Made by a program: the position numbers and the translations under genes. From NCBI GenBank assembly GCA_902587295.1, contig CACIKS010000006.1, positions 1-48,826 of the forward strand: a stretch of DNA of 48,826 nt, given 5' to 3'. This DNA comes from an uncultured Pelagibacteraceae bacterium. Its GTDB lineage: Bacteria; Pseudomonadota; Alphaproteobacteria; Pelagibacterales; Pelagibacteraceae. Shown one piece after another: positions 34,986 through 36,665 of this stretch (its first letter is position 1; each line of letters begins with the position of its first letter). The notes under the pieces were generated by a model. The model did no database searches. It was not told where the DNA came from and was given only the letters and a program-made list of their open reading frames with translations.

Positions 34986-36038
34986 ATGGCTGAACAGGTA
35001 AAAATTGCTATAGATTTAATGGGCGGAGAAAATTCACCCAATAAAACTCTAGAAGGTGCAGATTTATTTCTTAGTAGAAACAAAAATATCAAAGATCTTA
35101 AGTTTTATTTTTTTGGAGATGAAAATATAATTCAAGAAAAGTTAAAAAAGTATAAAAACCTAAATAATAATTACAAAATATTTAATACCGAGATAATTGT
35201 TTCAGATGAACTTTCACCAATATCGGCTTTAAAAAAAGGAAAAGATTCAAGTATGTGGAAAAGTATTCAAGCTCAAATAGATCATAAAGCAGATATAACA
35301 TTATCAGCAGGAAATACTGGAGTATTACTAGTTATGTCAAAAATGATTCTAAAAACATTAGAAAATGTCGACAAACCAGCATTAGCTGGTTTGTGGCCAA
35401 ATGAAAAAAATATGAATGTGGTTTTAGATCTTGGCGCAAATATAGACTGTAGTGAAAAAAACCTAATTGATTTCTCCGAGATGGGATCGGCTCTTTTTAA
35501 ATCGATCTTCCCTGATGATACACCAAAAGTTTCATTATTGAATATAGGTCTTGAAGAAATGAAAGGTACAGAACTATTAAAAACTACTTTTTTAAAATTA
35601 AAAGAAATTAGCAAATTAGGTGATTTTAAATTTAACGGTTACATAGAAGGAAATCAAATTACCAAAGGCGAATCTAACGTTATAGTTACAGATGGTTTTA
35701 CAGGTAATGTGGCACTCAAAACAGCAGAAGGAACAGCAAATTTTTTAACTCAAACTTTAAAAAAGAGTTTGTCTGAGAATTTATTGTCAAAGATATCAGT
35801 TATCTTTTCCTACTTTGCTATGAAAAAATTTAAAGAGAGATTAGATCCTCGAAAATACAACGGAGCTATTTTTTTAGGTTTAAACGGTCCCGTTGTCAAA
35901 AGCCATGGAGGAACAGATGCATTAGGTTTTTCTTATTCTATTGAGCTATGTTATAAAATCGCAAAAGGTAAATTAATTGAAAAAATCAAAAATAATTTAG
36001 GTCATATTAAAAGTTTAAATGATAAGGGACAATATTAG
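34986..36038 (+). CDS. plsX: phosphate acyltransferase PlsX
   Basis: Converts acyl-ACP and phosphate to acyl-phosphate, the substrate of PlsY encoded at 4861-5442. The 350-residue protein begins with IAIDLMGGENSPNKTLEGA. It has ADITLSAGNTGVLLVMSKM, the VVLDLGANIDC segment, and VTDGFTGNVALKTAEG. The C-terminal YNGAIFLGLNGPVVKSHGG is present. Length is complete. In related genomes fabH usually comes next; here the ihfA reading frame begins 20 bases before the plsX stop, so no room for fabH remains. Confidence 0.97.
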   Translation: MAEQVKIAIDLMGGENSPNKTLEGADLFLSRNKNIKDLKFYFFGDENIIQEKLKKYKNLNNNYKIFNTEIIVSDELSPISALKKGKDSSMWKSIQAQIDHKADITLSAGNTGVLLVMSKMILKTLENVDKPALAGLWPNEKNMNVVLDLGANIDCSEKNLIDFSEMGSALFKSIFPDDTPKVSLLNIGLEEMKGTELLKTTFLKLKEISKLGDFKFNGYIEGNQITKGESNVIVTDGFTGNVALKTAEGTANFLTQTLKKSLSENLLSKISVIFSYFAMKKFKERLDPRKYNGAIFLGLNGPVVKSHGGTDALGFSYSIELCYKIAKGKLIEKIKNNLGHIKSLNDKGQY

Positions 36039-36345
36039 CAAAAAAGATGTTCTTTAAAAGATAAACTTAGGTTTAGGTATACCAATTTCTTTTTCTGAGA
36101 AAATTCTAGATTTAATTTTTCTTATTATACTTCAAGGTTTAAAGAAAAAAAACAAAGTTAAAATACATGGTTTTGGAACATTTAAAATTATAAATAAAAA
36201 AGAAAGACCTGGTAGAAACCCCAAAACTAAGCAGGAATACCTTATAAATGCAAGAAAAGTTATTACGTTTATTCCTTCTAAAGAAATAAAAAAAAGAATT
36301 AATGAAAAAAAAATAAAACTGTTTACAAAACTATTGGAAATGTAG
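36019..36345 (+). pseudogene. ihfA: integration host factor alpha subunit, interrupted by an in-frame stop
   Basis: The frame starting at ATG 36019 reads as IHF alpha over its whole length but contains TAA at 36055-36057 (codon 13). Before it is NISKKDVL, and after it KINLGLGIPISFSEKILDL, then KVKIHGFGTFKI, ERPGRNPKT (the intercalating-proline arm) and NARKVITFIPSKEIKKRI. Spacing on both sides aligns with E. coli IhfA without gaps, so the stop replaces one residue (Glu in E. coli) by substitution, not an indel. No ATG, GTG or TTG follows that could restart translation early. A second anomaly is the 9-A tract at 36305-36313, which extends the 3' end beyond KRINEKK. This may be a real lesion, read-through, or sequence error. 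Confidence 0.85.
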
Positions 36346-36353
36346 CAAAAGAG

Positions 36354-36665
36354 ATGTCCATAAAGACACATACATTAAGATTTTGGGAGAAAGAATTTAA
36401 GCAAATCAAACCCAAAATATTATTAGGTAAAAGAAGATATTATGATGATAATGCAGTAAAAATTTTAAAGTTGATATATGAGCTGCTAAAAAAACAAGGA
36501 TATACAATTGAGGGTGCAAAAAAACTTTTAAATTCAAGTTCCATTAAACTTGACGAACATTTATCTTCAGGTATAAAAAGAGAAAATTTTAAAAGTTCTT
36601 TAAAAGTAAGAGCTCAAAAAATTAAACTAATATTAAATAAAATTAAAGGATTAGATAATGGCTAA
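36354..36665 (+). CDS. MerR-family transcriptional regulator, 5' end out of frame
   Basis: From ATG 36354 the frame gives 103 residues: the second half of a MerR-type helix-turn-helix (THTLRFWEKEFKQIKPKI), wing (GKRRYYDDNAVKIL) and a short helical dimerisation tail. The first helix, VYKTIGNVAKEM, is encoded just upstream in the same frame (36321-36356) but lacks a usable start: the frame is closed by TGA at 36303. The expected ATG at 36302 is one base out of register because the A-run at 36305-36313 has nine A. With eight, ATG 36302 would give MKKNKTVYKTIGNVAKEM and an intact 120-residue regulator. As written, the DNA-binding domain is incomplete. It is normally encoded next to ihfA; its target is unknown. 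Confidence 0.8.
   Translation: MSIKTHTLRFWEKEFKQIKPKILLGKRRYYDDNAVKILKLIYELLKKQGYTIEGAKKLLNSSSIKLDEHLSSGIKRENFKSSLKVRAQKIKLILNKIKGLDNG

Follow-up and report, generated by a model that had tools for sequence, protein, structure and literature searches.

How is a run of nine adenines to be read when it sits at the overlap of two genes and breaks the start of the second? The question is raised by the ihfA/merR overlap of G000, a draft genome of the SAR11 order (852 kb, 39 contigs, 76% complete) whose neighbours in the genus are single-cell genomes of marine Pelagibacteraceae. The run lies on contig C6, and this contig of 48,826 nucleotides, taken whole, is the window analysed here. A sequence-only reading had offered four explanations, unranked: (i) an error, (ii) a fixed mutation, (iii) a phase-variable switch, and (iv) a site of polymerase slippage that yields a mix of proteins. 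Comparison with relatives and with the rest of the assembly makes error the best supported of the four; nothing supports phase variation or functional slippage.

The gene order around the site is plsX, ihfA, merR and a small ribosomal-protein-like gene; coordinates are collected in the table. Read letter by letter, the run holds exactly nine A between G 36304 and T 36314. As assembled, the ATG immediately upstream of it translates to MKKK followed by a stop, so the break of the merR start seen in the sequence-only reading is real in the letters. The merR frame opens past TGA 36303 and offers no ATG, GTG or TTG ahead of ATG 36354; the longest normally started ORF (103 aa) has lost the first part of the DNA-binding domain. 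The Pfam family MerR_1 matches this shortened protein from model position 12 to 68 (59 bits), and matches the open frame read upstream of its first standard start from position 2 to 68 (67.8 bits), with the full N-terminal helix-turn-helix (HTH). The missing first DNA-binding helix is thereby confirmed. A different start for merR was considered and rejected: ahead of the first standard codon there is just the rare ATT 36333. With eight A in place of nine, merR would begin MKKNKTVYKTIGNVAKEM and ihfA would finish INEKK-TAA.

The state of ihfA is less simple. Its frame meets a TAA at codon 13, ~250 bases before the A9 run, then passes through the run to a TAG; downstream of the TAA, the list of open reading frames holds no same-frame ORF of at least 40 aa with a standard start. 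When an X is placed at the stop, the product carries a full Bac_DNA_binding domain (80.9 bits, model 2-90). The proposal that eight A would repair both genes consequently stands for merR and for the C-terminus of ihfA, and fails for ihfA as a whole, where the codon-13 TAA would remain. Owing to the same codon, the statement that one base change mends both genes is no more than half right.

Table. Features of the ihfA/merR overlap in G000 (positions are those of the window)
Feature	Position	Strand	Basis
A9 run at the ihfA/merR overlap, one A above the state expected from relatives	36305..36313	+	frame comparison with relatives
ihfA reading frame from ATG 36019, broken by the codon-13 TAA and extended to TAG 36343 by A9	36019..36345	+	
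In-frame TAA in ihfA at a codon that is Lys (AAA/AAG) in many relatives; a substitution that A8 would not mend	36055..36057	+	
Probable true merR start codon; its place relative to the ihfA end is kept in 21 relatives	36302..36304	+	
merR coding sequence, open frame of 119 codons plus stop, standard start absent before 36354	36306..36665	+	
First standard start in the merR frame as assembled; 103-aa protein without HTH helix 1	36354..36356	+	

The relatives define what the site should look like. In all 21 genus members with the two genes adjacent, ihfA and merR are intact and overlapping, and the distance from the merR ATG to the ihfA stop downstream of it is 5, 8, 11, 14 or 26 nt, in every case 2 mod 3. 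Eight A would place the G000 ATG 11 nt before the stop, matching G001, G007 and G023; nine A violate the frame rule. It is from this frame relation that the A8 of relatives and ancestor is deduced, and because A8 restores it, there is strong support for A8 as the presumed ancestral, or expected, state of merR. The proposed check of run length in related genomes agrees: merR is in frame in 21/21, no genus relative compared has a frame-breaking A9 at the merR start, no run-length change switches merR off at the site in these 21 species, and no alternative merR start was found. One of the neighbours, G024, shares its ihfA and merR starts with the single-cell genome AG-422-J20. Codon 13 of ihfA encodes Lys in most relatives, versus TAA in G000, and for this reason a single substitution would explain the stop.

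Across the genus, merR is present in 25 of 31 genomes (58-95% complete) and is broken in G000 and G029 only. The break in G029, the nearest relative, is an extra G in TTTTGGGGAAAAAG within the HTH (G029:C11:10540-10890, locus L004). The overlapping arrangement seen elsewhere in the genus is absent at two loci (G003:C6:58506-61206 and G026:C4:46419-49119), where ihfA and merR lie ~2.2 kb apart on opposite strands. The G000 genome yielded no second copy of merR; it does carry two other HU/IHF-family genes, HU and a second IHF-like gene, both intact. Among IMG/VR viral contigs no relative was found. Decay of the operon was considered and rejected, as the invariant sites of the two genes show no surplus of changes: G000 deviates at 0 of 24 invariant columns in ihfA and at 2 of 34 in merR, within the range of the relatives.

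The length of the run is ordinary. A/T runs of at least nine bases number 28 in the window, 22 of them exactly nine, and the conserved genes of G000 hold 298 of exactly nine. In these genes the counts of A/T runs roughly halve with each extra base up to 8-9 and fall sharply at 10 (298 to 56), a pattern as if runs of at least 10 were selected against or unstable. The A9 run itself is no more than chance; the part that is not chance is the break of an otherwise conserved gene.

Similar breaks are found in other genes of the same assembly. G000 was compared gene by gene and in both directions with G029 (991 kb) and with 398 kb of G024, and indels were called by eye on alignments of ~725 shared genes. 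Fourteen frame-breaking indels were found in G000, merR included, and 13 are one-base insertions of the run's own base. They affect ileS (A9), alaS (T9), proS (A8), accD (T9), thyX (A6), hisA (G7), ddlB (two), merR and ftsA (four indel sites, one best read as a deletion), with one further, ambiguous site in ftsQ; the names, other than merR, are putative assignments from sequence. The surplus bases sit in A, T and G runs, down to an A5 lengthened to A6. Among these assignments, alaS is the one checked with a family model, and its full-length copies in other genomes of the genus have an open frame. Several of the broken genes are essential in bacteria generally, and the tblastn matches listed for the genes searched include no second intact copy, only weak paralogues at 22-27%. 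The indels crowd in ddlB-ftsQ-ftsA (G000:C2:8300-11260, locus L037), where ~7-8 one-base indels, nearly all insertions, fall in A runs within 3 kb; either the sequence is poor here or the clustering is highly unusual.

G029 shows the same kind of lesion in other genes: ~8 frame-breaking indels, all insertions. The genes hit include pntB, murA and atpG, and also merR, at a site other than that of G000. Together the two genomes have 21 insertions against 1 deletion (two-sided sign test, ~1e-5), and none of the lesions listed lies at the same site in both. One apparently shared frameshift (G000 C4:42417 and G024 C1:11015) was rejected, the difference lying in G029. The insertion bias in G000 and G029 is strong and extends to short runs and G runs. 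G024 has at most one frameshift in its 398 kb.

A base rate for such lesions comes from 80 loci of a collection of named genomes, the majority of them from marine single cells. Across the 332 kb and 538 ORFs of these loci, three indels break the frame (two insertions and one deletion) and two nonsense codons occur, a frequency comparable in order to that of G000. The pair studied here is among the genes hit: ihfA is broken by an A11 insertion in AG-365-D19 (locus L113), a locus with two lesions within ~650 bp, and merR by a nonsense codon in AG-918-G06 (locus L176). For one marine single-cell pipeline, the benchmarked error rates are 3.0 indels and 5.0 mismatches per 100 kbp (PMC6122165). The load of G000, 14 frame-breaking indels in ~680 kb of conserved genes or ~2 per 100 kb, lies under the published indel rate; the two published rates cover the lesions seen, a point in favour of an artefact. 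Lesions also come in patches, as in ddlB-ftsQ-ftsA and in AG-365-D19, so two of them 250 bp apart in ihfA/merR fit.

We therefore give a probability of about 0.7 to the A9 being an artefact of a draft SAR11 (Pelagibacterales) assembly of the single-cell type. Amplification of the DNA, sequencing or assembly would have added one A to a natural run of eight; the merR of the organism itself would start at the ATG before the run and overlap the ihfA 3' end by a few codons, as in relatives, and the ihfA TAA, a mismatch, is probably another lesion of this class. The company of other lesions, their sign and their rate point to this technical origin. To judge by its genus, size and contig pattern, G000 is probably a single-cell genome. 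An error is favoured over a genetic switch because so many similar one-base insertions occur in single-copy essential genes of the same assembly. Like the draft single-amplified genomes of the benchmark (PMC6122165), G000 has one-base indels scattered through it that break conserved genes with a frequency of comparable order; unlike them, G000 and G029 have insertions almost exclusively. This is one of several points against an artefact. The benchmarked single-cell pipeline is not documented to produce insertions alone, and a benchmark paper finds deletions, if anything, slightly commoner in amplified reads (PMC5519541). G024, a known single-cell genome, carries fewer frameshifts than G000. 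Real homopolymer mutations should moreover be frequent, because SAR11 lacks mutS and mutL.

That last point also speaks for the view that the sampled cell truly had both the A9 and the ihfA TAA, and that these inactivated a regulator and one nucleoid-protein subunit, both dispensable to it. No MutS (PF00488) or MutL (PF08676) domain was found in any of 41 genomes of the order, among them G000 and 12 that are at least 90% complete, and deep-sea SAR11 have been reported without mutS and mutL (PMC12374537); with both absent, uncorrected homopolymer indels are expected. One operon holding two lesions, the broken merR of the nearest relative and the intact HU and second IHF-like gene would all suit such a loss. 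It is nevertheless unlikely: neither protein shows decay at its invariant columns, merR is otherwise kept wherever it occurs in the genus, and essential genes of the same assembly bear similar lesions, which cannot all be real losses. The wider claim, that in SAR11 without mismatch repair the essential genes of each genome truly carry several homopolymer insertions, tolerated by transcriptional or ribosomal slippage and with the merR A9 among them, is very improbable.

Slippage could also act on merR in its own right, as a pseudo-pseudogene: the A9 would be genuine, RNA polymerase would slip on it, and the part of the merR mRNA with A8 would give full-length MerR. Baranov et al. (PMC1088944) describe just such a lengthening, in which a non-slippery 8A becomes a slippery 9A and the gene keeps part of its activity, and merR has the same pattern, with A8 expected for relatives and ancestor, A9 here and the rest of the gene intact. 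In Blochmannia vafer, eight genes have poly-A or poly-T frameshifts that are possibly corrected by slippage (PMC3017870); Blochmannia and Buchnera resemble G000 in having an AT-rich reduced genome with a few frameshifted genes, essential ones included. The resemblance ends in two places. Some frameshifts of those symbionts are common to several species, whereas G000 and G029 have no listed lesion at the same site; and unlike the 9A cases (PMC1088944), G000 has next door, in ihfA, a nonsense codon beyond repair by slippage, and several of its sister lesions sit in runs that are not long enough for slippage or consist of the wrong base. The direction is also unfavourable. Transcription slippage in A/T runs of E. 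coli and Buchnera adds bases rather than removing them, and is absent in G/C runs (PMC5574713); rescue should therefore favour alleles one base short, and G000 has almost only insertions, the G7 and A6 included. As no relative has a frame-breaking A9 at the merR start either, rescue of this kind is quite improbable. Least credible of all is a phase-variable switch, in which slippage at replication would shift the tract between A8 and A9 and so switch merR between an on and an off state. A homopolymer directly after the start codon, in a clade without MutS/MutL, does recall the general mechanism (PMC2831843). Against it, the tract is of ordinary length for G000, one among the many nine-base A/T runs of its conserved genes, no genus relative has a tract length that turns merR off here, such gene-switching variation being absent among relatives, and merR encodes a regulator, in single copy, rather than a surface structure.

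The case illustrates how an assembly lesion can be told from a switch, namely by setting the site against the remainder of its own assembly. Calls of gene loss from such drafts need the reads, as ~1-2% of conserved genes are affected here. Were the lesions real instead, a very abundant clade of the ocean would read essential genes through frameshifts.
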